Positions 7,641 to 23,695 of a DNA stretch of 64,000 nucleotides are shown one piece after another (positions within the stretch are counted from its first letter, which is position 1; every line of letters starts with the position of its first letter). The position numbers were made by a program, and so were the translations under genes. Under the pieces are notes generated by a model. The model searched no databases and had not been told where the DNA came from. It saw nothing but the letters and a program-made list of their open reading frames with translations. The DNA is from Emcibacter nanhaiensis (GTDB taxonomy: Bacteria; Pseudomonadota; Alphaproteobacteria; Sphingomonadales; Emcibacteraceae), in contig NZ_VFIY01000004.1 of the NCBI RefSeq assembly GCF_006385175.1, forward strand, positions 62,001 to 126,000. Reading direction: 5' to 3'.

Positions 7641-7669
7641 CTGTAATATTATTGTCACATAACTGAACT
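7641..7669 (+). promoter_or_regulatory. Candidate PhoB box before the prepilin peptidase
   Basis: Three 7-bp repeats start exactly 11 bp apart: CTGTAAT (7641), TTGTCAC (7652) and CTGAACT (7663), separated by the AT-rich tetranucleotides ATTA and ATAA. This is the layout of PhoB binding sites (7-bp direct repeats with 4-bp spacers). The box is 170 bp from the prepilin peptidase start and 50 bp from the divergent lipoprotein start, so it could serve either or both. PhoB control is inferred; no phoB gene is in the window. Confidence 0.6.
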
Positions 7670-7839
7670 ATTATTTCGAAAATAATACTACAATCAGCAG
7701 TTAATCTTTATGAACTTTTTGTTTCATGAGGGGCTTTCGCGCGGAAAACTGCCATTTCCTGGCGAAAAAAATTGCCGGACAGCCGAAAATAACCTATTGA
7801 AACCGGCTAGGGATTAACTTTTTCGGGGGCGGGACGCAT

Positions 7840-8382
7840 ATGGCGGACGTCTTAAAATGGGGATCTGTTCTGGCCCTGGCTGCGGCCGGTATCGCGTTAC
7901 TGCCAGCGAATCTTCAAATATGGGGGGCTGTCCTGTTCGTTCCCCTTATGGTCCTCAGCCTTATCGATTTGAAGACTTACCGCTTGCCGGATTATCTGAC
8001 CCTGCCTCTTGCCGGCGCCGGCCTGGCTTTCAGCTATTTGGGTTATCCGGCTTTTCCGGATTTTCTGCATAGCCTGATGGGGGCTGCTGCCGGCTATCTC
8101 TTTATATATATGGTGGCTCTGTCCTATCGGAAGGTCAGGGGGCGGGAAGGGATCGGCATGGGGGATGCCAAGCTTCTCGCCGCGGCTGGCGCCTGGGCCG
8201 GCGTATTATATCTGCCTTTTATCCTGCTTTTGGCGTCCGTCGCCGGATTGCTGGTTGTACTGGTCAGTAAACGGGGGGCGGCAACGCTGGAAACCATGAT
8301 GCCATTCGGACCGTTCCTGGCGGTTGGAACATGGCTGACCTGGGTTCTTAAACTGTCCTCTATATTAGTTTTGAGTAATTAA
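7840..8382 (+). CDS. gspO: Prepilin peptidase (A24), short form without methyltransferase domain
   Basis: A membrane aspartyl protease that cleaves the leader of type IV prepilin-like proteins at the cytoplasmic face. The two catalytic aspartates are visible in LIDLKTYRLPDYLTLPL (about residue 47) and GIGMGDAKLLAAAGAW (about residue 109), and PFGPFLAVGTW completes the family pattern. At 180 residues it lacks the N-terminal Cys-rich methyltransferase domain of full-length PilD/GspO. The expected substrates are the pseudopilins GspG-GspK encoded 12-15 kb downstream. The start is supported by a GGGGGCGGGA stretch. A CpaA-type role in tight-adherence pili is the alternative, but no such genes are nearby. 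Confidence 0.88.
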   Translation: MADVLKWGSVLALAAAGIALLPANLQIWGAVLFVPLMVLSLIDLKTYRLPDYLTLPLAGAGLAFSYLGYPAFPDFLHSLMGAAAGYLFIYMVALSYRKVRGREGIGMGDAKLLAAAGAWAGVLYLPFILLLASVAGLLVVLVSKRGAATLETMMPFGPFLAVGTWLTWVLKLSSILVLSN

Positions 8383-8495
8383 AAGAGACTCGCAGGGGCG
8401 GCCGCTCTTGTTACATTTCAGTTTAAAACTATTCGTCATTTCAGGCAGGATATTTTGAATCCGATGGTTGGAAAATAAATCCTGACGTTCAGTCT

Positions 8496-8509
8496 AGGTT
8501 GATCAACCT
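8496..8509. promoter_or_regulatory. Perfect palindrome AGGTTGATCAACCT
   Basis: A 14-bp perfect palindrome 190 bp upstream of the duplicated exported protein. It may be an operator for a dimeric regulator; none is identified. Confidence 0.35.
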
Positions 8510-8543
8510 CTTGAAAAATAAGTCATATTAAATGTGACTGGGC

Positions 8544-8595
8544 GTGTAACAAAATATTAAACTAACCGTAACAATTACTGAAGCATAACTGTCAC
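8544..8595 (+). promoter_or_regulatory. Candidate PhoB sites before the duplicated exported protein
   Basis: CTGAAGC (8578) and CTGTCAC (8589) start 11 bp apart with ATAA between them. Just upstream, GTGTAAC (8544) and CCGTAAC (8566) are 22 bp apart, with a one-base slip relative to the second pair. This is less regular than the boxes at 7641 and 14200, but it has the same half-site words. It ends about 100 bp before the start codon. Confidence 0.45.
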
Positions 8596-8697
8596 ATTTC
8601 CCTCCTAAAACCGCGACCTGATTAGTCCGGGGTGAATTGCGCCCGGATTGTCTGTCGAACTTAACTGTAATTTTTTTTTCTCGTTTAGGGGCGGAAA

Positions 8698-11481
8698 ATG
8701 ATCAAATCCATTAAACTCAGAACTGTACTGATTGCAGCCTGTGCCACTGTGGCGCTCGCAGGCGCTGGCTGTCAGGGCGACGATTCAATTGAACTGGCTT
8801 CACCGGGAACTACCGGTCCGAACCCGGGTACCGGCGACACTAGTGGTGATACCGGCGGCAGCGGCGGCAGCAGTGCCGGTAACTGCCCGTCTGGTACAGC
8901 AGACCTGACTGTTGGTACGGAAACACACTGTGAACTTTCCGGCACTCTGACGAGTAACATTACTCTTACTGCAGAAAACCTTTATGTGATCGACGGCCTG
9001 GTCATTGTTGGCGAAGACGTTGGCTATGACGGCACCGGCGGGGCACCGGTCACACTGACCATCGAGCCCGGCACAACAATCTACGGTAAAGACGAAAACT
9101 CTGTTCTGTCAGTTTCCCGTGGTTCGCAGCTCATGGCAGAAGGAAGCAATACAAACCCGATTATCTTTACTTCCGCTCAGGATCTTGGATTTGATGACGA
9201 GCTGGGGCTTGCCTCCCGCGCCGCTTATTCCGGTGCTCCTCTGGAAGAGCCCTGGTCCGGTGAATGGGGCGGTGTCGTCCTCAACGGTCGCGCCACCACC
9301 AACGTGAACTGCGTGGCCGGTGTCTGTGAAGGTATCGACGAGGTTACCAACGAGCTTTACGGCGGCGACGATGATGCCGACAGCAGCGGCTCCCTGAAAT
9401 TCGTTCAGGTCAAATATGCTGGCTTTAAAGTGAATGCCATCAGCGAACTGAATGGTATCGCCATGCAGGGTATCGGTAGCGGCACTGAAGTGGACTATGT
9501 TCAGGTTCACAACAACTCTGACGATGGTATCGAATTCTTCGGTGGTACCGTGAACGCCAAACACCTGGTGGTAACCGGTTCCGACGATGACAGCTTCGAC
9601 TGGACCTTCGGTTGGCGCGGCAACATCCAGTATGCTATCGCCATTCAGAACCCGAACCAGGAAAATACCGACCGTGGTATTGAAGCTGACAACAACGAAG
9701 ATGACAACACTCTGACTCCGCGGTCCAACCCGACCTGGTCAAACATCACCTTCGTGGGCATCGATTCCTCACCCTACGGCGATACAGGTATCGTCCTGCG
9801 CCGCGGTACGGCCGCAAGCTTCTACAACGCTGTTGTAACCGACTTCACCAGTGACTGTCTGGATGTTGACGGTTCAGAAAGTTATGCCCAGCTGAACGCC
9901 GGTGAGATTGTCATGGAATCAACGCTGCTGGATTGTACTTCCAACTTCGCAAATGAAGATGAAGACGGCGCGGATGAAGACAACCTGCCGACCTGGTTTG
10001 CTGACCAGGACAACAACACCCTGGCAACAAACTCACTGTCCGTTTTTGTGAACGGTGCAACAGAACAGGGTGTGACAGCGACTGACGCAAATGCCGTTAA
10101 CGCCTTCTTTGATACAACAGACTACATCGGTGCCGTTAACGGTCCGAACGATCCGGAAAACTGGACGCTCGGCTGGACTTACGGCATGAATGACGCGGCA
10201 GTATGCCCGACCGGTACGACAGACAACGGCGACGGTGGATGTGTGCTTGAAGGTACTTACACCGACACAATGCGCCTGGTTGCTGGTCTGGATTACTTCC
10301 TGCGTGGTCAGGTGAACATTGGTGTTGATGTGGGTTACGACGGAACCGATCCGGACGGTGATCCCGCAACGCTGATCGTTGATGCCGGTGTGACCATCTA
10401 TGGTGAGGACACCAATGCGGTACTCAACATCACTCGTGGATCCAAGATCTTTGTGAACGGTACTGAAGATGCTCCTGTCACCATGACAGCCACCAACGAT
10501 GGTGCCCGTGATATTGATACAGCCAGTGGCCTGTGGGGTGGTCTGATCCTCAATGGTCGTGCCTCTACCAACGTGAACTGCGTGGCCGGTGTCTGTGAAG
10601 GTATCGACGAGGTGACCGGCGATCTGTATGGCGGTGACGACGACACCGACAACAGCGGCCGCCTGAGTTATCTGGTGGTCAAATACGCCGGCTTTAAAGT
10701 GAATGCCATCAGCGAACTGAACGGTGTTGCCATGCAGGGTATCGGTAACGGTACTGAAGTGAACTATGTTCAGGTTCACAACAACTCTGACGATGGTTTT
10801 GAATTCTTCGGTGGTACCGTGAACGCCAAACACCTGGTGGTGACCGGTTCCGACGATGACAGCTTCGACTGGACTTTCGGTTGGCGCGGTAAGGTACAGT
10901 ATGCCATCGCCATTCAGAACCCGAACCAGCCCAACACCGACCGTGGTATTGAAGCTGACAACAACGAAGATGACAACACCCTGACTCCGCGGTCCAACCC
11001 GACCTGGTCAAACATCACCTTCGTGGGCATCGATTCCTCACCCTACGGCGATACAGGTATCGTCCTGCGCCGCGGTACGGCCGCAAGCTTCTACAACGCT
11101 GTTGTAGCCAGCTTCACCGATGACTGCCTGGATATCGACGGTTCAGAAAGCTATGACCAGCTGGATGCCGGCAACATTGTCATGCAGTCAACACTGCTGG
11201 ATTGTAACTCCAACTTCGCGAATGAAGACGAAGACGGCGCCGATGAAGACAACCTGCCGACCTGGTTTGCTGCTCAGGCCAACACTACCCTCGGTGGTTC
11301 AACCCTGGCTGTACCGTCTGACGGCACCAAAAAATATATCAATGGTACTGGTGAAGCAGCAGTAACTGCAACAGATGCAAATGCTGTAGACGCCTTCTTC
11401 GATACCACAAGCTATATCGGTGCGGTGGAGAACGCTGCTGGCGACTGGACTGCCGGCTGGACGGTCTGGATCCACGACTAA
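8698..11481 (+). CDS. Large exported, duplicated beta-helix-like protein (probable lipoprotein)
   Basis: The 927-residue protein begins with a signal peptide whose end, VALAGAGCQGDD, has a Cys in an acceptable lipobox position, followed by a Gly/Ser/Thr/Pro linker. The remainder is two copies of a module of about 430 residues (about 60-500 and 500-927). Each has a GYDGT...TIEPGTTIYG opening, NCVAGVCEGIDEV (a likely disulfide), an Asp-rich YGGDDD loop, VHNNSDDGIEFFGGTVNAKH, TGSDDDSFDWTFGWRG and IVLRRGTAASFYNAVV. The short repeating strands suggest a right-handed beta-helix with Ca-binding loops. I recognise such proteins only as partners of TonB receptors, without a known activity. The place between gspO, a TBDR and the gsp operon suggests a T2SS substrate. 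Confidence 0.8.
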   Translation: MIKSIKLRTVLIAACATVALAGAGCQGDDSIELASPGTTGPNPGTGDTSGDTGGSGGSSAGNCPSGTADLTVGTETHCELSGTLTSNITLTAENLYVIDGLVIVGEDVGYDGTGGAPVTLTIEPGTTIYGKDENSVLSVSRGSQLMAEGSNTNPIIFTSAQDLGFDDELGLASRAAYSGAPLEEPWSGEWGGVVLNGRATTNVNCVAGVCEGIDEVTNELYGGDDDADSSGSLKFVQVKYAGFKVNAISELNGIAMQGIGSGTEVDYVQVHNNSDDGIEFFGGTVNAKHLVVTGSDDDSFDWTFGWRGNIQYAIAIQNPNQENTDRGIEADNNEDDNTLTPRSNPTWSNITFVGIDSSPYGDTGIVLRRGTAASFYNAVVTDFTSDCLDVDGSESYAQLNAGEIVMESTLLDCTSNFANEDEDGADEDNLPTWFADQDNNTLATNSLSVFVNGATEQGVTATDANAVNAFFDTTDYIGAVNGPNDPENWTLGWTYGMNDAAVCPTGTTDNGDGGCVLEGTYTDTMRLVAGLDYFLRGQVNIGVDVGYDGTDPDGDPATLIVDAGVTIYGEDTNAVLNITRGSKIFVNGTEDAPVTMTATNDGARDIDTASGLWGGLILNGRASTNVNCVAGVCEGIDEVTGDLYGGDDDTDNSGRLSYLVVKYAGFKVNAISELNGVAMQGIGNGTEVNYVQVHNNSDDGFEFFGGTVNAKHLVVTGSDDDSFDWTFGWRGKVQYAIAIQNPNQPNTDRGIEADNNEDDNTLTPRSNPTWSNITFVGIDSSPYGDTGIVLRRGTAASFYNAVVASFTDDCLDIDGSESYDQLDAGNIVMQSTLLDCNSNFANEDEDGADEDNLPTWFAAQANTTLGGSTLAVPSDGTKKYINGTGEAAVTATDANAVDAFFDTTSYIGAVENAAGDWTAGWTVWIHD
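9301..10003 (+). repeat. Intragenic repeat, copy 1
   Basis: This segment (residues about 202-435) recurs 1,269 bp downstream at 10570-11272 with very few differences. By eye, positions 9712-9837 are identical to 10981-11106, far beyond what protein conservation requires, which points to a recent duplication or gene conversion. Confidence 0.85.
10570..11272 (+). repeat. Intragenic repeat, copy 2
   Basis: Second copy of the segment at 9301-10003 (residues about 625-858), in the same reading frame and orientation. Confidence 0.85.
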
Positions 11482-11494
11482 GCTTCAGTGATTG

Positions 11495-11526
11495 GCTGCG
11501 GCGGGCATTACTCTGCCTGCCGCAGC
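11495..11526 (+). other. Intercistronic hairpin between the exported protein and the TonB receptor
   Basis: GCTGCGGC and GCCGCAGC pair, with an inner GGC/GCC, around a short loop. No T-run follows, so it is more likely an mRNA-stabilising or processing hairpin than a terminator; the receptor gene starts 23 bp later. Confidence 0.55.
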
Positions 11527-11549
11527 TCTCTCATTTAAAAAAATCACAC

Positions 11550-14141
11550 ATGGTGCTTGATATGAAAAGTTATACTACAAATTTGAAGGGAGCCCTTCTG
11601 GCCAGTACGCTGATACTGGTTCCGGCAGGGGTTTACGCCCAGCAGGCAGAGCAGGCCGAGCCCAATCAGGATATCGAGGAAGTGACCGTTATGGGTCAGT
11701 ATATTCCTGATGAAAAGCGGTCTACCTCTGAAATTTCCAACATCCTCGATGCCGCCGACTTCTCCCGCCTCGGGGACAGCGATGTCGCGGGATCCCTGAA
11801 GCGTCTTACCGGTCTCAGCCTTGCTGAAGACGGCGTGGTCATTGTTCGCGGTCTTGGCGACCGTTATTCCAACGCACTGCTTGATGGCGCAAATCTTCCG
11901 AGCCCCGACCCGCTTCGTCGTGTCGTTCCTCTCGATATCTTTCCTGTGAACGTGCTGGACGGCGTGCTTGTTCAGAAAACCTTTTCACCGGAATATCCGG
12001 GTCACTTTGGTGGCGGCCTTATCGAAATGCGCACAAAGGCTGTGCCGGATGAAGATTTCTTCAAGGTTGGCATTTCCACAGCCTATAATACAATATCAAC
12101 TTTTGAAGACGGCCTGAGCTACGATCATTCCGACACCGACTGGCTCGGTTTTGACGATGGTCTTCGTGACCTTCCGGATGCCATTAAAGCTGATCCCTAT
12201 CTGGCAAATATGACAGACGAGGAACGGGAAGCGGCCGGTGAAGCCATTTCCAATATCTGGTCTGCTGATTTCCAGGAAAACCTGCCTGACTTCGGTCTGG
12301 AAGGCACTTTGGGCAAGCGCATTGAAATGGACGACAGCAGCCTGGGTGTTCTGTTTTCCGTCTCCTATGACAACCAGTACCGCAACAAAGAAGGTGTGTT
12401 TAACGAATACAGCAATACCTCTGAAGGTGCGGAACTCAACGGTCTGGGTATTCGGCCGGAAGCCTGTCTGGAATTCGAGGGTGCACCGCAGAACTGTGGC
12501 CTGAGAAGCACGACGTTTGAAGTGGACCTTAACGGTATTCTCAATGTCGGCTATGAATTCAACGGCAACAACAACATCCAGCTGACATCGCTGCTGCTGA
12601 GAAAATCATCTCGTTCCGCAACGATCTTCAGTGGTGATTTCGCCGCGGACCCGGGCCGGTTGCGTACGCTGACTCAGCTCGAGTGGGTTGAGCGCCAGGT
12701 ATGGTCAAACCAGCTGTCCGGTGACCATTTCTTTGACTTGAGTGATGCCGGGGAAACGGAACTCAAATGGCATGCTGTTTACGGAACAGCCAGCCGCGAC
12801 GTGCCGATGCGTAAGCAGTCCACCTATGAATACAACGAAGCTCTGGGCGCCAACATCCTGTCCACGCGTGAGAGTATCCAGCTGGGTAACGGGATTTTCT
12901 GGGGCGAGCTGGACGATACCATTTATGAATATGGTATGGATCTGAAACAGCCCGTTGAGTTCGGTGATGTCCAGGCAGATATTTCTGCTGGCGGAATGTA
13001 CTATAAAAAGGAACGTGAATCCTCATATCTGAGATACCGTTTCGGCTTCCCGGCCGGTGGCGCTTCTCCGGAGCTGAGAATGCTTGTTCCCGAGATCGTA
13101 TTTGGTACGTTCAACATCGCTCCCGACGGAATTCAGCTGCTGTCACAAACATTGGCAGGTGACTACTTTGAAGGAAGCGAAGAAGTCCTGGCCGGCTACA
13201 TCAAAGCTGATGCCCAGGTTTCTGAAGACATCCGCCTGGCTGTCGGCGGACGCTATGAAGATACCACGCAGAATATCGATACTGTGAACCTGTCTGTGCA
13301 GCCGGAGAGCCAGAGGTTCCTGCCGGCAGCGACTCTGACCTGGACCTTTGCGGAAAATATGCAGCTTCGTCTGGCCGCATCGCAGACCCTGTCCAGGCCT
13401 GACCTGAGGGAACTGGCTCCGGTTTCCTACTATGATGAGCTGGGCCGTTCCCGCACCGGTAATCCGGATCTCAAGACCGCGAAGGTCACCAATCTGGATG
13501 CCCGTTTCGAATGGTATTTCGGTGAAGATGAGTCAGTGACCATCGGTGCCTTCTACAAGGACTTCAAAGATCCGATTGAAGAAACCGTAACCATCATCGG
13601 TGACGGCACCAGGAACCTGAGTTACATCAACGCGGATTCAGGTGAACTGTATGGTGTCGAAATTGAGGCAAATATCAATATTCCGCTGGCTGAAACCTTT
13701 GAGGGTGAATTCTGGCAGAATCGTCTCTTTTACGTAAAGGCCAACGGAACATACATCAACTCTGAGGTTAATATTGCTCCAGAAGACCTGAATGTTCTGA
13801 CCAACGCGGTTCGTCCGATGCAGGGACAGTCTGAATGGCTCGGCAACCTGCAGCTGGGATGGGATGGTGAAGACGATCGCCTTACTATCCTTGTGAACTA
13901 CACCGGCGAGCGCATTGCCAGTGTCGGTACATACAGCCTGCCGGACCTGGTCGAGGATGCGACTGTTTTTGTAGACCTGGTTTATAAACGGGACATCGAA
14001 ATCGGCGGTGGCGAAATGGAGCTGAGCTTCAAAGTCGAGAATATTCTTGATGAAGATTATCAGGTTACTCAGGCTGGCTTCCTCGCTGAAAGCTATAACA
14101 TCGGCACTACATTCTCAGTGGGTGTAAGCCACACCTTCTAA
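11550..14141 (+). CDS. TonB-dependent outer-membrane receptor
   Basis: The 863-residue protein has a signal peptide ending VYAQQAEQ, a TonB-box-like EEVTVMG at about residue 43, a plug domain (DVAGSLKRLTGLSL, VIVRGLGDRYSNALLDGANL) and a beta-barrel that ends in the outer-membrane signature GVSHTF with C-terminal Phe. Such receptors take up scarce ligands with energy from TonB-ExbBD. The substrate cannot be read from the sequence. It follows the duplicated exported protein by 68 bp and probably shares its transcript; the next gene is gspC. ATG at 11550 is used; ATG at 11562 is an alternative. Neither has a strong ribosome binding site. Confidence 0.92.
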   Translation: MVLDMKSYTTNLKGALLASTLILVPAGVYAQQAEQAEPNQDIEEVTVMGQYIPDEKRSTSEISNILDAADFSRLGDSDVAGSLKRLTGLSLAEDGVVIVRGLGDRYSNALLDGANLPSPDPLRRVVPLDIFPVNVLDGVLVQKTFSPEYPGHFGGGLIEMRTKAVPDEDFFKVGISTAYNTISTFEDGLSYDHSDTDWLGFDDGLRDLPDAIKADPYLANMTDEEREAAGEAISNIWSADFQENLPDFGLEGTLGKRIEMDDSSLGVLFSVSYDNQYRNKEGVFNEYSNTSEGAELNGLGIRPEACLEFEGAPQNCGLRSTTFEVDLNGILNVGYEFNGNNNIQLTSLLLRKSSRSATIFSGDFAADPGRLRTLTQLEWVERQVWSNQLSGDHFFDLSDAGETELKWHAVYGTASRDVPMRKQSTYEYNEALGANILSTRESIQLGNGIFWGELDDTIYEYGMDLKQPVEFGDVQADISAGGMYYKKERESSYLRYRFGFPAGGASPELRMLVPEIVFGTFNIAPDGIQLLSQTLAGDYFEGSEEVLAGYIKADAQVSEDIRLAVGGRYEDTTQNIDTVNLSVQPESQRFLPAATLTWTFAENMQLRLAASQTLSRPDLRELAPVSYYDELGRSRTGNPDLKTAKVTNLDARFEWYFGEDESVTIGAFYKDFKDPIEETVTIIGDGTRNLSYINADSGELYGVEIEANINIPLAETFEGEFWQNRLFYVKANGTYINSEVNIAPEDLNVLTNAVRPMQGQSEWLGNLQLGWDGEDDRLTILVNYTGERIASVGTYSLPDLVEDATVFVDLVYKRDIEIGGGEMELSFKVENILDEDYQVTQAGFLAESYNIGTTFSVGVSHTF

Positions 14142-14199
14142 GGCTGAAGCCACGGTTAAACATCAAGGGCATCTGCGGCGGCAGGTGCCCTTTATTTTT

Positions 14200-14228
14200 A
14201 TGTAACAATACTATCACATTCCTGTAAC
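14200..14228 (+). promoter_or_regulatory. Candidate PhoB box before gspC
   Basis: Three 7-bp units start 11 bp apart: ATGTAAC (14200), CTATCAC (14211) and CTGTAAC (14222), with spacers AATA and ATTC. This is the most regular Pho-box-like array in the window. It ends 48 bp before the gspC start, a normal place for an activator site. PhoB as the binding protein is inferred from the motif. Confidence 0.65.
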
Positions 14229-14276: not shown

Positions 14277-14897
14277 GTGGCTGTAACAAAAACAAATTTC
14301 ACAGAAAAACTGGCCTTTTTCCGGGGGAGTCTGCAACGCCTGCCGGCGAGCAGGGGCGTCTCCGAGTCGAAAAACAGGACGCCCTTTCAGTATTTTGTGT
14401 GGTTTCTGGAAATAATTTTCGCGGCATTGCTCCTCTATGTTCTGGCGCTTTTGTTCTGGGACTTCACCTCGCCCAGGCTGCCGGTGGTGGAAGGGGGCGG
14501 TGTTGCTGTCACAAAACAGACAAAAAACCGGGCGGCGACGGACTGGTCGGTTTTTGCCTCGGTCAATCCCTTTTACCGGGATCAGAAGATTGAAGCCGTT
14601 GAGGAGACGGCGCTGACGGAAGCCCGCGAAACCAACCTTGATCTTGAGCTGTTCGGCATCCGCTATAGCCCGGACGGCAGCGGCGTGGCGATTATCCGTA
14701 CACCCGACAAACAGCAGGGGGCTTTCCGCGCCGGGGATGAGATTTTTGACGGCGTAATACTTAATCGGGTTCTCGAAGACCGGGTGGCCATTGAACGTTC
14801 CGGTGTGCTCGAGGTGCTGACCTTCCCGGGACAACAGGGGACGGGGCAGGTCGCAGCTGACGGCACACCCCGGAACCAGGCGGGACAACAACAATGA
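14277..14897 (+). CDS. gspC: T2SS inner-membrane protein GspC
   Basis: GspC links the inner-membrane platform to the secretin. The 206-residue protein has a short cytoplasmic N-terminus, one membrane span (FLEIIFAALLLYVLALLFW, about residues 45-63) and a periplasmic homology region (LELFGIRYSPDGSGVAIIRT followed by GDEIFDGVILNRVLEDRVAI). The C-terminal PDZ or coiled-coil part is absent or very short, so this is a minimal GspC. The start is a GTG at 14277; no ATG is available in frame and the ribosome binding site is weak. It heads gspCDEFGHIJKLMN and its stop overlaps gspD. Confidence 0.87.
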   Translation: MAVTKTNFTEKLAFFRGSLQRLPASRGVSESKNRTPFQYFVWFLEIIFAALLLYVLALLFWDFTSPRLPVVEGGGVAVTKQTKNRAATDWSVFASVNPFYRDQKIEAVEETALTEARETNLDLELFGIRYSPDGSGVAIIRTPDKQQGAFRAGDEIFDGVILNRVLEDRVAIERSGVLEVLTFPGQQGTGQVAADGTPRNQAGQQQ

Positions 14898-16900
14898 AAT
14901 CAGGACACAGACAAGGTTCAGGCAGGGATATGAGGAAACAGATCACAAGATATATTGTCGTGCTGGCAGCTCTGATAACGGCTATGGCGACCGAGGCCGT
15001 GGCGCAGAACAATGAACCGGCAGTACTGAACTATCGCCAGGCCGATATCAAGGCGGTGACCGAGGATATTTCCCTACTGACCGGCAGGTCCTTTATCATC
15101 GATCCCCGGGTCTCCGGTAAGGTAACCATCATCTCCCGCGAGCCGGTGGAACGCGCCGCGGTGCTGGAAACCTTCCTGTCCACCCTGAAGGTGCATGGTC
15201 TTGCCGTGCTGCCCACGCCGGGTGGCGCCTATAAGATCGTGCCCGAGGACCAGGCGGCGGTTGAGGGGCAGATCCTGTCGAGGCGGGACAAGCCCACCGA
15301 CCAGATGGTGACCGAAGTCATCAAACTGCGTCATCTCGATGTGACCCAGGCCTCCAACATGCTCAAGACCCTGGTCGGCAAATCCGGACGGGTATTGCCC
15401 TACCGGCCGTCCAATGTCCTGATTCTGGTGGATTTCGCCCCCAATGTCGAACGCCTCAAGGCGGTGCTGGCCGAGGTGGACAAGTCCCGCGATGTGGTGC
15501 GTATGATTTCGCTCAGCAACACCTCGCCCAGCGAAATGGCGGAAATTCTGGAACAGCTGAAGAGTGCTTCCGGCGCAGAGAATGCCATGTACAGCGGCTT
15601 TTCCGCCGTACCGGTGGACGCCAGCGACACCCTGATGCTGAAGGGCGACCAAAAGGTCATCGATGAGCTTATGCCGGTGATCGAACAACTGGATGCGCGG
15701 CGCAAGTCCAAAGGCGATCTCAGGGTGGTAAAACTCAATCACACCAGCGGCGAGACCCTGCTGCCGGTGCTGCAGGAAGTGAGCCAGTCCCTGGCCCAGA
15801 GCAAGGGGGAAAATGCCGGTGGAGGGCGTGCCGGAAAAACAAGCATTTCCCTGCATCCCTCCACCAATTCCCTGGTGATTAATGCCGACCCGGAAATGCA
15901 GAAGGCATTGGGTGACGTGATCCGGCAGCTGGATGTGCCCCGCGACCAGATCATGGTCGAAGGCATTATCGTCGAGGTGTCGGATACCACGGCCAAGGAA
16001 CTTGGCCTGCAGTATTTCCTGTCCGGCAGCCAGACCTCCGGCGTGCCGTTCGTCACCACCAATTATTCCAACAGCACACCCAATATCCTGGCCTCGGCCG
16101 GGGCGCTGCTGGCGGCCGATGAACTGGGCGAGGACAGTGACGCCCTGGCGGCGCTGCAGAGCAACGCCATTGACTCGATCCTCGGTATCAACGGCTTCGC
16201 CGGCGGTCTTGCCGGAAAATCGTCCAACGGCACCACTTTCGGCTTTATCCTCAATGCGCTGGACGAGGATATCACCTCCAACATCCTGTCCACGCCATCG
16301 GTCATTACCATCGACAACGAGGAAGCCCGCATTCTCGGCGGCCAGGAAATTCCCATTACCACCGGCGAAACGCTGAGCAGCAACAACTCCAACCCGTTCC
16401 GCACCGTGAACCGGGAGGATATCGGCGTGAAGCTGACCGTGCGTCCGCAAATCAACGGCGAGAACGGCATTCTCGCCCATATCCAGCAGGAGGTGTCCAG
16501 CGTTGCCGGCACCATCAGCAGCCAGTCCACCGACCTGATCACCAACAAGCGGGAAGTGGAAACCACCGTGATGCTGCAGGACGGCGAGATCATGGTGCTG
16601 GGCGGCCTGATCCAGCAGGATGAATCCGTGTCCATCAGCGGTGTGCCGCTCTTGAAGGATATCCCGGTGCTGGGCGAAGCCTTCAAGAGCCGGGCCAAGT
16701 CCCGCGAGCAGCGCAACCTGATGATTTTCCTGCGCATGACCATCATCCGCGACAAGGACCAGCTGCGCCGGGTCACCAACAAGAAATATGATTTCTTCCG
16801 TAATGACCCGCTGATGGAGGATGCCTACGGCGGTATCGGGCTCGACGGCGTCATGAACAAGGTGATCGGCGCCACGCCGGCAAAACCGGAAGGCGAATGA
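14894..16900 (+). CDS. gspD: T2SS outer-membrane secretin GspD
   Basis: GspD forms the outer-membrane channel. The 668-residue protein has a signal peptide, an N0 domain (NYRQADIKAVTEDISLLTG), several N1-N3 repeats (for example VIKLRHLDVTQASNMLKTLV) and a C-terminal secretin domain with VPLLKDIPVLGEAFKS. ATG 14894 overlaps the gspC stop (ATGA); ATG 14930 would give a more conventional signal peptide start (MRKQITRYIV) and is a real alternative. A pilotin is not obvious; the small lipoprotein at 24899 is a candidate by position only. Confidence 0.95.
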   Translation: MKSGHRQGSGRDMRKQITRYIVVLAALITAMATEAVAQNNEPAVLNYRQADIKAVTEDISLLTGRSFIIDPRVSGKVTIISREPVERAAVLETFLSTLKVHGLAVLPTPGGAYKIVPEDQAAVEGQILSRRDKPTDQMVTEVIKLRHLDVTQASNMLKTLVGKSGRVLPYRPSNVLILVDFAPNVERLKAVLAEVDKSRDVVRMISLSNTSPSEMAEILEQLKSASGAENAMYSGFSAVPVDASDTLMLKGDQKVIDELMPVIEQLDARRKSKGDLRVVKLNHTSGETLLPVLQEVSQSLAQSKGENAGGGRAGKTSISLHPSTNSLVINADPEMQKALGDVIRQLDVPRDQIMVEGIIVEVSDTTAKELGLQYFLSGSQTSGVPFVTTNYSNSTPNILASAGALLAADELGEDSDALAALQSNAIDSILGINGFAGGLAGKSSNGTTFGFILNALDEDITSNILSTPSVITIDNEEARILGGQEIPITTGETLSSNNSNPFRTVNREDIGVKLTVRPQINGENGILAHIQQEVSSVAGTISSQSTDLITNKREVETTVMLQDGEIMVLGGLIQQDESVSISGVPLLKDIPVLGEAFKSRAKSREQRNLMIFLRMTIIRDKDQLRRVTNKKYDFFRNDPLMEDAYGGIGLDGVMNKVIGATPAKPEGE

Positions 16901-16901
16901 C

Positions 16902-18413
16902 ATGGCGTCTGCGGAAGCACAGGTGAGCCAGACACCGATCTCCTACAGCTTCGCCCGGGAGAGGGGGGTGCTGGCGATTCCGGAGGAACAGGGACTGGTG
17001 CTTGGCCTCAGGCCCGACGCAGCGCTGGCGGACATCCTGGAGGCCCGGCGGGTATTGCCCGATCACATCCAGCTCCGCAAGCTGGACAAGGGCGAATTTG
17101 AAAAATACCTCTCTGACATCTATGCCATGGGCGACCTGGCGTCCGAAGACCTCAGCGACAGTCTGGAGGAGGAAAGCAGCCTCGACAGCTTTATCGAAGG
17201 CATGCCCAAGACTGCCGACCTGCTGGATAGCACCGATGATGCGCCGATTATCCGCCTGATCAACGGTCTGATCGCCCAGGCGGTGCGGCTCAAGGCCTCC
17301 GATATTCATCTGGAGCCGTTCGAAAGCCGCCTGTCGGTACGCACCCGGGTCGACGGGGTGATGCAGGAAATTCTCAGCCTCAACGCCCGGCTGTCTTCGC
17401 TGCTGGTGTCCCGGATCAAGGTGATGGCCCGGCTCGATATCGCCGAAAAACGCATTCCCCAGGACGGGCGCATTTCCCTGTCCCTGGGCGAGCGGACTCT
17501 GGACGTGCGCGTGTCCACGTTGCCGTCCCAGCATGGCGAACGGGTGGTGATGCGTCTGCTCGATAAGTCACAGGCGCAGCTGAGTCTGGGAGATCTCGGC
17601 ATGGAGCCGGATACCCGAACCCGGATGGAAGCGCTGCTGGAAGAGCCCAACGGCATTATCCTGGTGACCGGTCCGACCGGGTCCGGGAAAACCACCACCC
17701 TTTATGCCGCGCTGTCGCGGCTCAACAACTCCACCCGTAATATACTGACCGTGGAAGACCCGGTCGAATATGCCCTCGACGGCATCGGCCAGACCCAGGT
17801 CAACAGCAAGGTCGGCATGACCTTCGCCACCGGGTTGCGCGCCATCCTGCGCCAGGACCCGGATGTGGTGATGGTCGGCGAGATCCGCGACCCGGAAACG
17901 GTGGAAGTGGCGGTGCAGGCCTCGTTGACCGGCCATCTGGTGCTGTCCACTGTCCATACTAACAGCGCCGTCGGCGCCATCACCCGCCTGCGCGACATGG
18001 GCGTAGAGCCGTTTTTGCTGTCCTCCACCATCAAGGGGATCCTGGCCCAGCGTCTGGTGCGCCGCCTGTGTCCGCATTGCCGCAAGGAAAAAATCGTTAC
18101 CGCCACCGAACACCGCTTGTCCGGCGGTCACCTGATGGAAGGCGCAAAGGTCTTTGAAGCGGTCGGCTGCGACGCCTGCCACCATACCGGCTATACCGGC
18201 CGGATCGGTCTCTATGAACTGTTGGTCATCAACGAAAACCTGCGGCGGATGATTTATAATTCCGCCAGCGAGCAGGATATGGAAGCGGAAGCGTTCAAGA
18301 CCGCTGGCAGCCTGTTTGTCAACGGCCTGAAAGCGGTCCGGGAAGGCCAGACCTCGCTCGAGGAAGTGCTGAGAGTCTGTCGTCACCAGGAGGATGGTGA
18401 TGGCGGTCTATGA
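16902..18413 (+). CDS. gspE: T2SS ATPase GspE
   Basis: The cytoplasmic secretion ATPase that drives pseudopilus growth. In 503 residues it shows an N-terminal GspE/XpsE-N domain, the Walker A motif GPTGSGKTTT (about residue 257), the Asp box and Walker B region RQDPDVVMVGEIRDPETVE, the His box LSTVHTN, and the tetracysteine zinc site CPHC...CDACHHTGYTGR. All catalytic motifs are intact. One base separates it from the gspD stop. Confidence 0.97.
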   Translation: MASAEAQVSQTPISYSFARERGVLAIPEEQGLVLGLRPDAALADILEARRVLPDHIQLRKLDKGEFEKYLSDIYAMGDLASEDLSDSLEEESSLDSFIEGMPKTADLLDSTDDAPIIRLINGLIAQAVRLKASDIHLEPFESRLSVRTRVDGVMQEILSLNARLSSLLVSRIKVMARLDIAEKRIPQDGRISLSLGERTLDVRVSTLPSQHGERVVMRLLDKSQAQLSLGDLGMEPDTRTRMEALLEEPNGIILVTGPTGSGKTTTLYAALSRLNNSTRNILTVEDPVEYALDGIGQTQVNSKVGMTFATGLRAILRQDPDVVMVGEIRDPETVEVAVQASLTGHLVLSTVHTNSAVGAITRLRDMGVEPFLLSSTIKGILAQRLVRRLCPHCRKEKIVTATEHRLSGGHLMEGAKVFEAVGCDACHHTGYTGRIGLYELLVINENLRRMIYNSASEQDMEAEAFKTAGSLFVNGLKAVREGQTSLEEVLRVCRHQEDGDGGL

Positions 18414-19620
18414 ATATGTGGCGCTCGACCACAAGGGCAAGAAACAGAAAGGCGTGATCTCCGCTGACAGCAGCCGCCAGGCGCGCAAGGACCTGCAGGA
18501 ACGGCAGCTGATGCCGGTCAGCCTGGACAAGGTGGACAAATCTGCCGAGGCCTCTTCGCTGGGCAAGTGGCTCGGCGGGGGCCGGATCGGCAACAAGGAA
18601 CTGGCCATGCTGACCCGCCAGCTCGCCACCATGATCAATGCCGCGGCCCCGGTCGAGGAAGCGCTGTCAATGACTGCTGAGCAGGTGGAAAATCCCGCCG
18701 CTTCCAAGAAACTGATGGCGGTGCGGGCCCGGGTGATGGAGGGGCGCAGGTTCTCAGAAGCGCTGGCATTATACCCTAATGATTTCAATCAGTTCTATCG
18801 TTCTCTTATAGCATCAGGTGAAGTATCAGGTGCGCTGGGGCAGGTGCTGGAACGGCTTGCCGACCATCTGGAAAAATCGCAGCAGCTGCGCAATAAAATT
18901 CTCACCGCCACCCTCTATCCCGCCATGCTGGCGCTGGTCGCCGTGGTAGTGGTGATCATCCTGATGACCTTCATTGTGCCCAAGGTGGCGGGCCAGTTTG
19001 AGAGCATGGGCCAGACCCTGCCGTTCCTGACCCGCACCATGATTTTCCTGTCGGACATGATGCGGGACTATGGCATCTTCATTCTGCTGGCTCTGGCCTT
19101 GGCGATCCTCCTGTTCCTGCGGCAGCTCAAGCAGGAAAAATTCCGCCGCCGCTGTGACGGCTGGATGTTGCGCCTGCCGCTGATTGGCAAACTGGTGCGC
19201 GGCCTCTATGCCGCCCGGCTGGCCCGCACGCTGTCGACCCTGATTGCCAGCGGCTCGCCGGTGATGGAAGGCTTGCGCTCCGCCGGCCAGACCATGCAGA
19301 ACCTGGTCATGCGCGAAGCGGTTGAAAAAATGGTCACCCAGATCAGTGAAGGCAGCAGCCTGTCCCGGGCGCTCCGCAACTCCGGCGTCTTTCCCGGCAT
19401 TGTCGTCTATATGGCCGGGGCGGGGGAGAAAAGCGGCCAGCTGCCGGACATGCTGGAAAAGTCCGCCGACTATCTGGAAGGCGATTTCGAAACCTTTATC
19501 GCCACGGCGCTCAGCCTGCTGGAGCCCGGCATTATCATTATCATGGGGGCCATTGTCGCCCTGATTGTTTTGTCCATCCTGCTGCCGATTCTGCAGCTCA
19601 ATACGATGGCGCTTGGTTAA
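18400..19620 (+). CDS. gspF: T2SS inner-membrane platform protein GspF
   Basis: Polytopic platform protein that couples GspE to pseudopilin assembly. The 406-residue protein opens with MAVYEYVALDHKGKK, as is standard, and has two T2SSF domains (LTRQLATMINAAAPVEEAL and LARTLSTLIASGSPVMEGL), each followed by hydrophobic spans. ATG 18394 and GTG 18397 are also in frame, but AGGAGG at 18388-18393 is correctly spaced only for ATG 18400. The start lies inside the end of gspE, a 14-bp overlap. Confidence 0.96.
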   Translation: MAVYEYVALDHKGKKQKGVISADSSRQARKDLQERQLMPVSLDKVDKSAEASSLGKWLGGGRIGNKELAMLTRQLATMINAAAPVEEALSMTAEQVENPAASKKLMAVRARVMEGRRFSEALALYPNDFNQFYRSLIASGEVSGALGQVLERLADHLEKSQQLRNKILTATLYPAMLALVAVVVVIILMTFIVPKVAGQFESMGQTLPFLTRTMIFLSDMMRDYGIFILLALALAILLFLRQLKQEKFRRRCDGWMLRLPLIGKLVRGLYAARLARTLSTLIASGSPVMEGLRSAGQTMQNLVMREAVEKMVTQISEGSSLSRALRNSGVFPGIVVYMAGAGEKSGQLPDMLEKSADYLEGDFETFIATALSLLEPGIIIIMGAIVALIVLSILLPILQLNTMALG

Positions 19621-19636
19621 TATACGGAGAGAGAAT

Positions 19637-20095
19637 ATGTCTGCACAGCCTGAACATGATGCGCAGCAGCCTGAAGTAACGAAAGAGTCCGGTTTTACCC
19701 TGGTGGAGCTGATGGTGGTGATCGTCATCATCGGCCTGCTGGCGACGGTGGTGGTGATCAATGTGCTGCCGAGCCAGGACAAGGCCATGGTGGAAAAAGC
19801 CAAGACCGATATCAGCCGCCTGCAGATGGCACTGGAAATGTACAAGAAGGATAACCTCGGCTTTCCGACCACCGAGCAGGGGCTGGACGCGCTGGTCTCC
19901 GAGCCGGCTGGACTCAAGCGCCCGGAACGTTACCAGAAGGGCGGCTATATCCGCGAGCTGCCGGAAGATCCCTGGGGCACGCCGTACCAGTATCTGATGC
20001 CGGGCGAGCATGGTGATTATGACATTTACTCGCTCGGCGCCGATGGCCGTCTCGGCGGGGAAGACCTGGACAAGGATATCGGAAGCTGGAAGTAG
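19637..20095 (+). CDS. gspG: T2SS major pseudopilin GspG
   Basis: Main subunit of the pseudopilus. The 152-residue precursor has an 18-residue leader ending ESG before the cleavage site and mature N-terminus FTLVELMVVIVIIGLLA with Glu+5. The C-terminal part carries the GspG signature PEDPWGTPYQYLMPGEHGDYDIYSLGADG (parts), including the calcium-binding loop. An upstream in-frame start at 19565 lies within gspF; ATG 19637 has a GGAGAGAG ribosome binding site. Processing by the prepilin peptidase at 7840 is expected. Confidence 0.97.
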   Translation: MSAQPEHDAQQPEVTKESGFTLVELMVVIVIIGLLATVVVINVLPSQDKAMVEKAKTDISRLQMALEMYKKDNLGFPTTEQGLDALVSEPAGLKRPERYQKGGYIRELPEDPWGTPYQYLMPGEHGDYDIYSLGADGRLGGEDLDKDIGSWK

Positions 20096-20125
20096 CATGA
20101 CGCAGGGCAAATAGCATGACGCAGG
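20093..20125 (+). repeat. 19-bp-spaced duplication of the gspH start region
   Basis: TAGCATGACGCAGG occurs at 20093-20106 and again at 20112-20125. The first copy contains the gspG stop and starts a minicistron (ATG ACG CAG GGC AAA TAG) that ends just before the ATG of gspH, which lies in the second copy. Confidence 0.7.
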
Positions 20126-20595
20126 ATAGGCAGGCAGGATTTACTCTGGTCGAGTTGATGGTGGTGATCGTCATCATCGGCATGATCTCTGCCGTGGTGG
20201 TGCTGAATATGCCGTCGCCGGCCTCAGATCTGGAACAGGAAACAGAGAAGCTTGCCGCCCGGCTGCGTCTGGCGGCCGAGGAAAGCATCATGGCCGGGGA
20301 ACTGACCGGGGTCCGCATCACGCCGGAAGGATATGCATTTGTCATCTACCGGCGCGGCCACTGGCTGCCGCTGGACCTGCCGTCCGGGCAGTGGCCGGAA
20401 GGCGCGGTGGTGCGCCTGGTGCGGGACAGGTTGCCCGTCGAACTGACGGAAAATTTGCCTGAGAACAGCCCGTCAATCTGGTTTGATCCTCTGGGAAATC
20501 AGATGTCTTTCTCTATAGATATCAGTGGAATAGATGATAATATTAAAGTGTCAGGAGAGGAAAATGGCGAGATCATTGTCAACCCTGTCTCCTGA
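20116..20595 (+). CDS. gspH: T2SS minor pseudopilin GspH
   Basis: A 159-residue minor pseudopilin with leader MTQDRQAG and mature FTLVELMVVIVIIGMISAV, followed by an Ala/Leu/Glu-rich helix (EKLAARLRLAAEESIMAGEL) and GVRITPEGYAFVIYRRGHW, typical of the GspH fold. The C-terminal third is more A/T-rich than neighbouring genes. The start region is locally duplicated (20093-20125). It overlaps gspI by 32 bp. Confidence 0.92.
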   Translation: MTQDRQAGFTLVELMVVIVIIGMISAVVVLNMPSPASDLEQETEKLAARLRLAAEESIMAGELTGVRITPEGYAFVIYRRGHWLPLDLPSGQWPEGAVVRLVRDRLPVELTENLPENSPSIWFDPLGNQMSFSIDISGIDDNIKVSGEENGEIIVNPVS

Positions 20596-20959
20596 TCGAA
20601 AATCAGAGCAGGGCTTTTCCCTGGCGGAAGTCATGGTGGCGCTGTTTGTCTTCAGCATTGCCGCCCTGGCCCTGATCAAGATGGGCGGGGAAAATGTCCG
20701 TAACCTGTCCCTGATCGAGCAGCAGACCCTGGCCTCTATTGTGGCGGAAAACCAGCTGGCCCTGGCCGTCACCCGCAAAGGGGAAATCCGTCCCGGCGTG
20801 CGCAGCGGCACCGAGGAGCAGGACGGCATCGACTTTGCCTGGCAGCTGCAGGTTCGCCCGGCGCCGGATCCAAAAATCTATGAAGTGCGGGTCCGGGTGA
20901 CGGAACAGACAAGCGGGCAGGAGCTTGCCCTGCTGACCGGCTACAGGGGGCGCGAATGA
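20564..20959 (+). CDS. gspI: T2SS minor pseudopilin GspI
   Basis: Tip pseudopilin of 131 residues. It has a leader of about 15 residues ending EQG and mature FSLAEVMVALFVFSIAALAL, then the GspI features LIEQQTLASIVAENQLA and a C-terminal beta-rich part. ATG 20564 follows GGAGAGG and is preferred to ATG 20534. Its stop overlaps the gspJ start (ATGA). Confidence 0.93.
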   Translation: MARSLSTLSPDRKSEQGFSLAEVMVALFVFSIAALALIKMGGENVRNLSLIEQQTLASIVAENQLALAVTRKGEIRPGVRSGTEEQDGIDFAWQLQVRPAPDPKIYEVRVRVTEQTSGQELALLTGYRGRE

Positions 20960-21570
20960 GCAACGATCGCGGTTTTACCCTGGTGGAGGTGATGGTGTCG
21001 CTGACCGTCTTTGCCCTGCTGTCGGTGATGGGCATTGCCATCCTGTCTTCGGCGGTCTCCAGCCAGGAGTCTGTGGAGGATGGATCGGAACGCCTGCGCG
21101 AAATCCAGGTCAGTCGCGCCCTGCTGAAATCCGATTTCATGCAGCTGGCCCGCCGCCAGGTGCGGGATGCGTACGGCGGCCCATTGCAGAATGTCTTTGC
21201 CGGCTATCAGCCCGAGGGGCGTGACGCGTTCCTGACATTCGTACGCAGCGGCTGGATCAATCCGGGGCAGATGCAGCGCCGGGCCGAACTGCAACGGGTC
21301 AGTTACGAGCTCAAGGACGGGGATCTGGTCCGCCGGACCTCGTCCCATCTCGACCCGGCGAAGGAAGAGGATCGTTCCGAACGGGTGGTACTGTCCGGGA
21401 TCAAATCGCTGGAAACCTCCTTCTACATCAACGGCCAGTGGTTCGACGTCTATGAGAGCCGGACCGGTGAGAAAGTGACCCTGCCGCAACTGGTTTCGGT
21501 TGAGGTGGAGTTCCGGGACGGCCGCCACCTGAAACAAATTTTCATCACCTCCCAGGGGCGGGTTTCATGA
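20956..21570 (+). CDS. gspJ: T2SS minor pseudopilin GspJ
   Basis: Tip pseudopilin of 204 residues with a very short leader (MSNDRG) and mature FTLVEVMVSLTVFALLSVMG. The family segment RALLKSDFMQLARRQVRDAYG follows, and later the repeated strand segments of the GspJ fold. It overlaps its neighbours by 4 bp on each side, as expected for a coupled gspI-J-K set. Confidence 0.93.
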   Translation: MSNDRGFTLVEVMVSLTVFALLSVMGIAILSSAVSSQESVEDGSERLREIQVSRALLKSDFMQLARRQVRDAYGGPLQNVFAGYQPEGRDAFLTFVRSGWINPGQMQRRAELQRVSYELKDGDLVRRTSSHLDPAKEEDRSERVVLSGIKSLETSFYINGQWFDVYESRTGEKVTLPQLVSVEVEFRDGRHLKQIFITSQGRVS

Positions 21571-22568
21571 TTTGGCGGCAGAAAGTCACATATGACCGGG
21601 AGAGCGGGGCGGCGCTGCTGACCGTGCTGCTGCTGGTGGCGATCATCTCCGCCCTGGTGGTAGGCATGCTGGACCAGCTCCGCTTTAATGTCCGTCGCGC
21701 CGGCACGCTGGAAAAACAGCAGCAGGCGGAATGGTATGCCGTGGGCCTGGAGGAATATGCTGGCGGCATGATGAAAAGCCTGCACAAGCTGTCTGCCGAC
21801 AAGACCACCCGCCGGCAGCTGGATCGGGTGGCGGCCTTCAGTGTGCCCATAGAGGATGGGGTGATCCGCGGCCAGGTGACTGACGGCGGCAACTGTTTCA
21901 ATCTCAACAGCGTGGTAGAACGCCGTGACGGCAACCGTTATCTGATGCGCGAGAGCGGGCGCGAGCAATATGTCACCCTGCTGAAGACACTGGGTATTCC
22001 CGGCGGCGATGCCGTGATTCTGGCCAACCGGCTGGTGGACTGGGTCGACAGCGACAGCGCGCCCATGACCTGGGGCGCCGAGGATTATCACTATATGGGG
22101 CTGCAGAATCCCTACCGGACCGCCAACACTTTGCTCGCCAATGTGAGCGAGCTCAGGCAAATCGAAGGCTACACGCCGGAGGTGCTCTATCTGATCCGCG
22201 ACTATGTCTGTACCCTGCCGACCCCGGAGCTGAGCCCGATCAATATCAACACCCTGAAGCGGGAGCAGGCCCCATTGCTGGTCATGCTGCTGGGGGAAAA
22301 ACTTCTACTGCAGAAGGCGGAGCAGGTGATCGATAATCGTCCGGACGGTGGCTATGACAGCCCGCAGGCCTTCTGGGCGGATCGGCTGCTGGCCGACACG
22401 CCGCCGACAGTGGATGTGCAGGATCAGGTAGTGCTCGCCACCCGTTATTTTGAACTGACTGCGGATGTCAGCTGGCAGGATCGCTATCTGGCCATGACAT
22501 CGCTGCTGGAGCTGGAGAATACCGGCGATGTGCGCCTGGTGTCCCGCCAATTTGGAGAAAAACTGTGA
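21567..22568 (+). CDS. gspK: T2SS minor pseudopilin GspK
   Basis: The large tip-capping pseudopilin (333 residues). The prepilin-like start is GAALLTVLLLVAIISALVVG, without the Glu+5 seen in the other pseudopilins, as usual for GspK. Downstream are GQVTDGGNCFNLNSVVER, the helical SAM-like insert and NINTLKREQAPLL, all typical of the family. Together with GspI and GspJ it should form the pseudopilus tip complex. Confidence 0.94.
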   Translation: MIWRQKVTYDRESGAALLTVLLLVAIISALVVGMLDQLRFNVRRAGTLEKQQQAEWYAVGLEEYAGGMMKSLHKLSADKTTRRQLDRVAAFSVPIEDGVIRGQVTDGGNCFNLNSVVERRDGNRYLMRESGREQYVTLLKTLGIPGGDAVILANRLVDWVDSDSAPMTWGAEDYHYMGLQNPYRTANTLLANVSELRQIEGYTPEVLYLIRDYVCTLPTPELSPININTLKREQAPLLVMLLGEKLLLQKAEQVIDNRPDGGYDSPQAFWADRLLADTPPTVDVQDQVVLATRYFELTADVSWQDRYLAMTSLLELENTGDVRLVSRQFGEKL

Positions 22569-23695
22569 GTATCGGGGTAATCATTTATATCGATCCCGCG
22601 GGGGAAAATATCTGGCGCCGGGCTGGGGACAGCGGACAGGCGCCACGGGCTCTGGGTGACGGCACCGCCTGTCGGGCGGCCATCGATGAAGACCGCTCGC
22701 GGAGCGTACGACTGGTGCTGCCGGGCAATAAAGTCACTGCTCGCCTGCTGGAGATGCCGGAGACGTCAGAGGAAAATGCCCGCGCCGCGGTCAGCTTCCT
22801 GATGGAGGACCATCTGGCAGCGCCGGTGGCGAAAACCCACCTGGTCAGCAGGAAGCTGGAAGAGGGCAAGCGCCTGGCGCTCGCGGTGGCCCATGCGGAC
22901 ATGGAAGCCTGGCTTGCGCACCTGAAAGAGATGGATATCCGGCCAGATGAAGTGGCAGTGGATTTCCAGCTGCTGGCGCCGGCCGGGGAAGAGGCAAGCC
23001 TGGAGGTTGGAGATTTCCACTACAGTCTGGACGCTGACGGTGCGGGATTTGTGATGGACCGGCAGACCCTCGCCCTGTTGCAGCAGAATGGCCTCGGCGA
23101 GGCGGGGGATATGGCGCCCCCGGCAACTCTGGACTCCGCGGCGCTGTTTGATCGCTTTGCAGTCCCTGAACTCCCGCTCAATCTGCTGCAGGGCGCATAC
23201 GGCACCCAGGCCTCGCTGATGGAATATTTCCGGCCGCTGACCCGGGTGGCGGTGCTGGCGCTGGTGCTGTTTGTTTTTTACCTCGGCCACCTGGGACTGG
23301 AGGCTCATTCCTGGCGCCAGGCGGCGGACGTGCTCGACCAGCAGGCCGAACTGATGGTCAAGAAGGCCTTCCCGGAGACCAGCCGCATCGTCAACATCCG
23401 CGCCCAGCTGAGATCAAAACTGTCCATCTCCGAGGAGGGGGGAGAGAATGTCTTTATGCAGGTCAACAGCCGCCTGTTGGCGGCACTGGACAAGACCCCG
23501 GAAGTGCAGCTCGACAAGCTGCGCTTCAACAGCAGCGACAACCGGCTTTATGTCACCCTGTCCACCGGCAGTTTCGAACTCCTCGACGCCTTCAAACGGG
23601 AACTGACCTCAGGCAGCCTGCTGGTCGAGGACCAGGGGGCGCGGCAGGACGGCAACCGGGTCAGTGGTGATTTTGCCCTGGAGGTGGTCTCATGA
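22565..23695 (+). CDS. gspL: T2SS platform protein GspL
   Basis: A 376-residue inner-membrane protein with an actin-like cytoplasmic domain that recruits GspE, one membrane span (VAVLALVLFVFYLGHLGLEA, about residues 230-249) and a periplasmic ferredoxin-like domain. The start is GTG, overlapping the gspK stop (GTGA). Sequence conservation in this family is low; the call rests on architecture and on the position between gspK and gspM. Confidence 0.88.
   Translation: MSIGVIIYIDPAGENIWRRAGDSGQAPRALGDGTACRAAIDEDRSRSVRLVLPGNKVTARLLEMPETSEENARAAVSFLMEDHLAAPVAKTHLVSRKLEEGKRLALAVAHADMEAWLAHLKEMDIRPDEVAVDFQLLAPAGEEASLEVGDFHYSLDADGAGFVMDRQTLALLQQNGLGEAGDMAPPATLDSAALFDRFAVPELPLNLLQGAYGTQASLMEYFRPLTRVAVLALVLFVFYLGHLGLEAHSWRQAADVLDQQAELMVKKAFPETSRIVNIRAQLRSKLSISEEGGENVFMQVNSRLLAALDKTPEVQLDKLRFNSSDNRLYVTLSTGSFELLDAFKRELTSGSLLVEDQGARQDGNRVSGDFALEVVS

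Follow-up and report, generated by a model that had tools for sequence, protein, structure and literature searches.

Putative Pho-box arrays upstream of the prepilin peptidase, elpS-like and gspC genes of a type II secretion island in Emcibacter nanhaiensis

Three arrays of 11-base-pair (bp) direct repeats were found in front of genes of a type II secretion system (T2SS) island in a stretch of 64,000 nucleotides of the Emcibacter nanhaiensis genome (NZ_VFIY01000004.1, positions 62,001–126,000, forward strand; hereafter the window). All three are on the plus strand. One lies before a prepilin peptidase gene (7641..7669), one upstream of the gene for an ElpS-like exported lipoprotein, here called elpS (8544..8595), and one before gspC (14200..14228). 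We take these arrays to be PhoB-binding Pho boxes, which would place the island in the phosphate-starvation regulon, with a probability of roughly 85%. Because the arrays match the organism's own phosphate-starvation switch, the island is probably switched on by phosphate exhaustion.

The repeats are real, as the original prediction described them: all of its words were found in exact 11-bp register. The peptidase array consists of three units, CTGTAAT at 7641, TTGTCAC at 7652 and CTGAACT at 7663, and the gspC array likewise of ATGTAAC at 14200, CTATCAC at 14211 and CTGTAAC at 14222. Before elpS, CTGAAGC at 8578 and CTGTCAC at 8589 form the second set of the array; an extra set in 11-bp steps (8544, 8555 and 8566) lies upstream of it, with a 12-bp step between the sets. 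The CTGTCAC/CTGTAAC words, which had been said to have the form of PhoB sites, match the pstS boxes of this genome and of its relatives.

For scoring, a 29-bp matrix was made from the pstS promoters of 31 loci (own genome and relatives), of which 28 passed. To choose the training sites, the Escherichia coli consensus served as a seed for picking the best-matching CTGTCAT-type array in front of every pstS; no T2SS sequence was included. Scoring of the three arrays with a PhoB matrix, as had been proposed, placed them above background: over both strands of the window the top four positions were 14200 (28.6 bits), 7641 (25.7 bits), 8544 (17.5 bits) and 8578 (16.9 bits). The sole further position with at least 12 bits was 7652, a shifted register inside the peptidase array, and no site of this strength was found elsewhere in the window. 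When the intergenic stretches were shuffled with their dinucleotides preserved, the observed maximum was reached in 0 of 2000 shuffles for the peptidase, 1 of 2000 for elpS and 0 of 2000 for gspC. The best window score of 300 column-permuted matrices had a mean of 12.0 and a maximum of 24.4, and the values of 25.7 and 28.6 were never attained.

The whole genome was scanned with a sequence-only model trained on 25 distinct sites; 514 first-look candidates were obtained, 150 were scored and 11 matches were listed. The organism's own pstS site, which was among the training sites, ranked first (E 0.0007), followed by 7641 (0.072) and 14200 (0.078), and 8578 was eleventh (2.5). The matches listed also include Pho-box candidates before a phosphate-selective porin O/P gene (C14:236317) and before a CHAD gene (C5:523519). 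Outside the 11 matches, a box of 18.5 bits was found upstream of the open frame of the PhoX gene (C8:44354). A phoB gene was identified on contig 18 by a TIGR02154 match above cut-off. It lies in a cluster in which phoB, phoU, pstB, pstA and pstC all exceed their family cut-offs; a PhoR-like kinase gene and pstS were found there as well, both with scores too low for theirs.

The set at 8578 and 8589 had been described as the weaker one. This is true of its scores, but the elpS array proved to be the most conserved of the three. At order level (60 genomes), an elpS-like gene was found in 23, GspC in 20 (19 above cut-off) and both in 19; at class level (289 genomes), the ElpS repeat was found in 9, GspC in 13 and both in 6. 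The order peptidase, elpS, receptor and gspD is kept in 12 of 20 order-level regions, and among the other eight, three have no peptidase match, four have no nearby gsp match and one is cut by a contig end. In the relatives, with L090 left out at a contig edge, an array was present upstream of elpS at p ≤ 0.05 in 18 of the 19 testable cases (p ≤ 0.01 in 12), whereas the elpS-receptor junction, used as a control, had one in none of the 19.

The same was found in 80 named loci, the best of a longer list and partly near-duplicates (e.g. L201 and L202), which were sorted into alphaproteobacteria and gammaproteobacteria by their record labels. After loci with less than 150 bp upstream were left out (2 of 44 alphaproteobacterial and 1 of 36 gammaproteobacterial), the region upstream of elpS reached p ≤ 0.02 in 29/42 alphaproteobacterial and 25/35 gammaproteobacterial loci, against 5/112 and 9/105 for other genes and 1/42 and 1/36 for the elpS-receptor junction. 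Fisher's test of elpS against other genes gave 2e-16 and 1e-12, respectively, the loci being only partly independent; misses (p > 0.05) upstream of elpS numbered 7/42 and 5/35. A TonB receptor match was found in 78 of the 80 loci and a GspD match in 30 of the 44 alphaproteobacterial ones, and no GspC–F match was found in any of the 36 gammaproteobacterial loci within a flank of up to 8 kb. Because the receptor is nearly universal in these loci, GspD occurs in alphaproteobacteria and GspC–F were not found in gammaproteobacteria, the core unit looks like box, elpS and receptor, which the T2SS seems to have joined in alphaproteobacteria.

Four loci (L094, L096, L097 and L098) have a single-repeat elpS-like gene and a receptor gene with no nearby gsp genes, and still possess the upstream array; their neighbours appear VirB-like by eye. 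In L160, which is labelled Verrucomicrobiales, the box upstream of elpS is identical to that of the alphaproteobacterial single-cell genome L159, and the record is probably mis-binned.

In E. coli phoA, about 10–11 bp separate the last Pho-box unit from the −10 element. A −10-like hexamer 10–11 bp past the last unit was found in two of the three island promoters: candidate TAAAAC (8606..8611, plus strand) at gap 10 for elpS, and candidate AATAAT (7681–7686, plus strand) at gap 11 for the peptidase, where a better candidate, TACAAT (7689–7694), lies at gap 19. At gap 10, a hexamer starting with TA (TAAAAC, TATGTA, TATGAA and similar) is found in the elpS promoter both here and in seven relatives, and the gspC promoters of six genomes of genus g5 have TAAAA at this gap. 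An ordinary −35/−10 scan found no promoter in the three intergenic stretches; the two that it did find are both within the receptor gene.

The island had been proposed as one PhoB regulon unit. Control by PhoB is supported by the ranks of the arrays and by the conservation of that of elpS, but the gene arrangement looks like three transcription units rather than one, namely the peptidase gene, elpS with the TonB receptor gene, and gspC–N. A single operon was rejected because a terminator-like hairpin in the receptor/gspC gap (14165..14192, plus strand; 12-bp stem with a T-rich tail) and a separate array precede gspC. Terminator-like sites in the scan numbered 6, with 6.3 in shuffles, and are thus not in excess. 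A 14-bp stem-loop that lacks a T-run was seen at 11494–11527, in the gap separating the elpS-like gene from the receptor gene; with it, elpS might be more abundant than the receptor. On the left side, a divergent gene (6461–7591, minus strand) encodes a protein with TPR repeats that also has a weak match to a C39 cysteine peptidase family. The idea that the 7641 array serves this gene was rejected, as the best minus-strand score was low and no minus-strand site reached 12 bits.

The conservation of the boxes in related genomes, which had been suggested as a check, was seen for elpS and partly for gspC; the relatives did not show it for the 7641 array in the role of promoter of the peptidase gene. 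Of six g5 genomes, five have strong arrays about 570–610 bp before the peptidase open reading frame (ORF) on the opposite strand, and in the other one the contig breaks off. These opposite-strand arrays (L081, L083, L085, L086 and L087) precede an exported-looking protein of 183–205 amino acids, which adjoins a small exported-looking protein; the one copy scanned matched no Pfam family. Arrays of 13–19 bits in Kordiimonas are directed at a small gene that is followed by the peptidase gene. In the uncultured Kordiimonas L089 (312–3197), PstA-like and PstB-like genes and phoU are located directly upstream of the island, and pstS is 7.8 kb from elpS.

Several observations weigh against the assignment of the island to the PhoB regulon, and the first group of them concerns its secretion part. 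The gap between the receptor gene and gspC contains an array in 7 of 15 relatives, six of which belong to genus g5, and among 30 named loci it passes p ≤ 0.02 in 6; as judged from these genomes, the gspC array is lineage-limited, and it has no good −10 hexamer at gap 10. By the same comparison, the relatives do not keep the 7641 array as the promoter of the peptidase gene, the left border of the island differing among them. Furthermore, the T2SS and the receptor of Caulobacter were reported as constitutive in the available part of a previous study (Le Blastier et al. 2010, PMC2996285). Only the elpS promoter might then be under lasting PhoB control, with the arrays of gspC and the peptidase as recent gains of low effect and a constitutive T2SS. 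We consider this improbable, since no other array in the window scores as high as these two, which rank second and third genome-wide, and that of gspC is retained in 6/6 genus g5 genomes tested.

A second group of such observations comes from the genome scan. The E-values of the island sites are modest taken alone, and five of the 11 listed matches have no clear facing phosphate gene. At C5:519430, a site of 23.7 bits, above those of elpS, has no facing gene that we could find; the site at C5:388077 neighbours an unnamed exported-looking ORF, that at C18:372240 adjoins a histidine kinase, that at C5:610436 is directed away from a Na/Pi cotransporter gene, and that at C4:14441 neighbours a protein of no Pfam family. 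Binding sites of OmpR-family relatives of PhoB may resemble Pho boxes, and with 43 places in the genome matching the PhoB profile (E ≤ 0.001), related receiver or DNA-binding proteins are numerous. Binding of the 11-bp direct repeats by another regulator of this family is nevertheless very unlikely: the matrix was derived from pstS promoters, its best match in the genome is the pstS of the phoB cluster, and the phosphate-selective porin gene and PhoX bear such boxes.

The last group concerns the words themselves and their spacing. With the bare E. coli consensus, 0, 12 and 7 of 2000 shuffles reached the observed maximum for the peptidase, elpS and gspC, respectively; 7641 ranked first in the window and 8578 second, but 14200 only sixth, and the top five included sites outside the arrays. 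The loose pattern CTGTMAY N4 CTGTMAY with up to two mismatches occurs 218 times genome-wide, against 186 times reversed, and is barely enriched. The mean −10 score of 15 promoters (elpS, g5 gspC and own gspC) speaks for the Pho-box reading, being highest at gap 10 among the 28 gaps compared; however, the last unit in the relatives was placed manually, so that one gap may have been favoured, and the organism's own pstS shows gap 10 only when a poor fourth unit is counted. That the repeats are chance words is hardly credible: the intergenic stretches are A+T-rich and the loose pattern is close to its reversed count, but the shuffles and the conservation counts against controls contradict it, and the permuted matrices stayed below the top two scores.

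We therefore retain the reading of the arrays as PhoB-binding Pho boxes. From the sites, their resemblance to the pstS boxes, their spacing and the conservation of the elpS array, we infer binding of PhoB and induction at the three promoters. Upon a drop in phosphate, PhoR would phosphorylate PhoB, which would bind the tandem 11-bp units and recruit sigma-70 polymerase to promoters without a −35 element, whose −10 would lie about 10–11 bp downstream. Transcription would start at three points, before the prepilin peptidase gene, before elpS and the TonB receptor gene, and before gspC–N behind its own terminator. By analogy with Caulobacter, ElpS may be located at the surface and released in a T2SS-dependent manner. 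The receptor may import a phosphorus compound. A phosphorus-scavenging role of the island is plausible.

The island contains genes for a prepilin peptidase (7840..8382; Peptidase_A24, PF01478, E 2.8e-22), the ElpS-like exported lipoprotein (8698..11481; 927 amino acids), a TonB-dependent receptor (11550..14141; PF00593 and PF07715), GspC (14277..14897; PF11356, E 5e-22) and GspD, E, F, G, H, I, J, K, L, M and N (14894..24899), all on the plus strand. The gene content is that of a type II secretion system, with GspC–N (among them secretin, ATPase, platform and pseudopilins) and the prepilin peptidase (Peptidase_A24) together. Two more weak GspC-like matches were seen elsewhere in the genome (C15:19874–20194 and C8:37335–37715), possibly belonging to another T2SS-like system.

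The ElpS-like protein consists of two tandem beta-helix repeats, which are 72% identical, and matched no Pfam or NCBIfam family. None of 47 ElpS repeat sequences fell into any NCBIfam family, and the Pfam Beta_helix model was found in 5 of the 47. The structure model of repeat 1 is a right-handed beta-helix (pLDDT 95). Among PDB sequences, the repeat gave only weak matches to GlmU, and no Foldseek match was found at E ≤ 0.001; VIA-align gave Z scores of 18.5–23.1 to many right-handed beta-helix proteins (at least 50 matches). This fold is common to polysaccharide lyases, epimerases, tailspikes and others, and because it is so widespread, no function could be deduced from it. That the protein binds a polymer at the surface is a guess. 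The copy number of the repeat varies, being one in some relatives of the order, two here and three in L217 (8001–11459) and L231 (4193–7648).

Tentatively, Pho box, elpS and TonB receptor may belong together as a core element, so far overlooked, of the phosphate regulon in alphaproteobacteria and gammaproteobacteria, in which the surface beta-helix lipoprotein, of no named family, and the receptor would capture and import a phosphorus-bearing polymer, with some alphaproteobacteria putting the whole T2SS under the same switch. We hold this broader proposal as possible but rather doubtful. It yields a testable prediction, that phosphate starvation governs a whole secretion machine together with a widespread, unnamed surface lipoprotein-receptor pair of environmental bacteria. 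An elpS box in gammaproteobacteria would also generalise the Caulobacter observation and raise the question of which phosphorus source the pair serves.

The idea of such an island is known biology in another lineage, since two papers, as far as their available parts go, describe the Caulobacter island and PhoB regulon (PMC2996285, PMC11208175). In Caulobacter crescentus, elpS (cc0170), cc0171 and gspC–N form the island, and elpS is induced by phosphate starvation (PMC2996285); RNA-seq placed the T2SS, TonB receptors and Pst within the PhoB regulon (PMC11208175). The statement that the Caulobacter T2SS secretes a lipoprotein was correct in part: the T2SS is required to release ElpS but not to move it across the outer membrane (PMC2996285). 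Neither the conservation of a Pho box in front of gammaproteobacterial elpS genes nor a gspC Pho box distinct from that of elpS was found reported in the literature searched, with partial coverage, and the available part of the Pseudoalteromonas tunicata genome paper (PMC2536512) has nothing on the elpS-receptor pair. The separate gspC box and the extension of the elpS box to gammaproteobacteria thus appear to go beyond the Caulobacter papers.

Like Caulobacter, E. nanhaiensis has the lipoprotein gene, the TonB-receptor gene and gspC–N in the same order (PMC2996285). The likeness to Cc0170 is one of gene order, signal peptide and size class, as compared with its published description. Unlike in Caulobacter, whose protein runs at about 50 kDa (PMC2996285), the lipoprotein here has two repeats and 927 amino acids, the peptidase gene precedes it in the same orientation, and a Pho-box array separate from that of elpS follows the terminator-like hairpin and precedes gspC. 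The E. coli Pho box is built of 11-nucleotide direct repeats of the CTGTCAT type, in which seven bases are conserved and the other four less so (PMC4415409, PMC10294691), and its spacing to the −10 element is strict (PMC10294691). The arrays described here share the tandem 11-nucleotide units of the CTGTCAT type, but they have three to five units per promoter, and variants such as CTGTAAC and CTGAAAC are common in them, as they are in the pstS boxes of the relatives.

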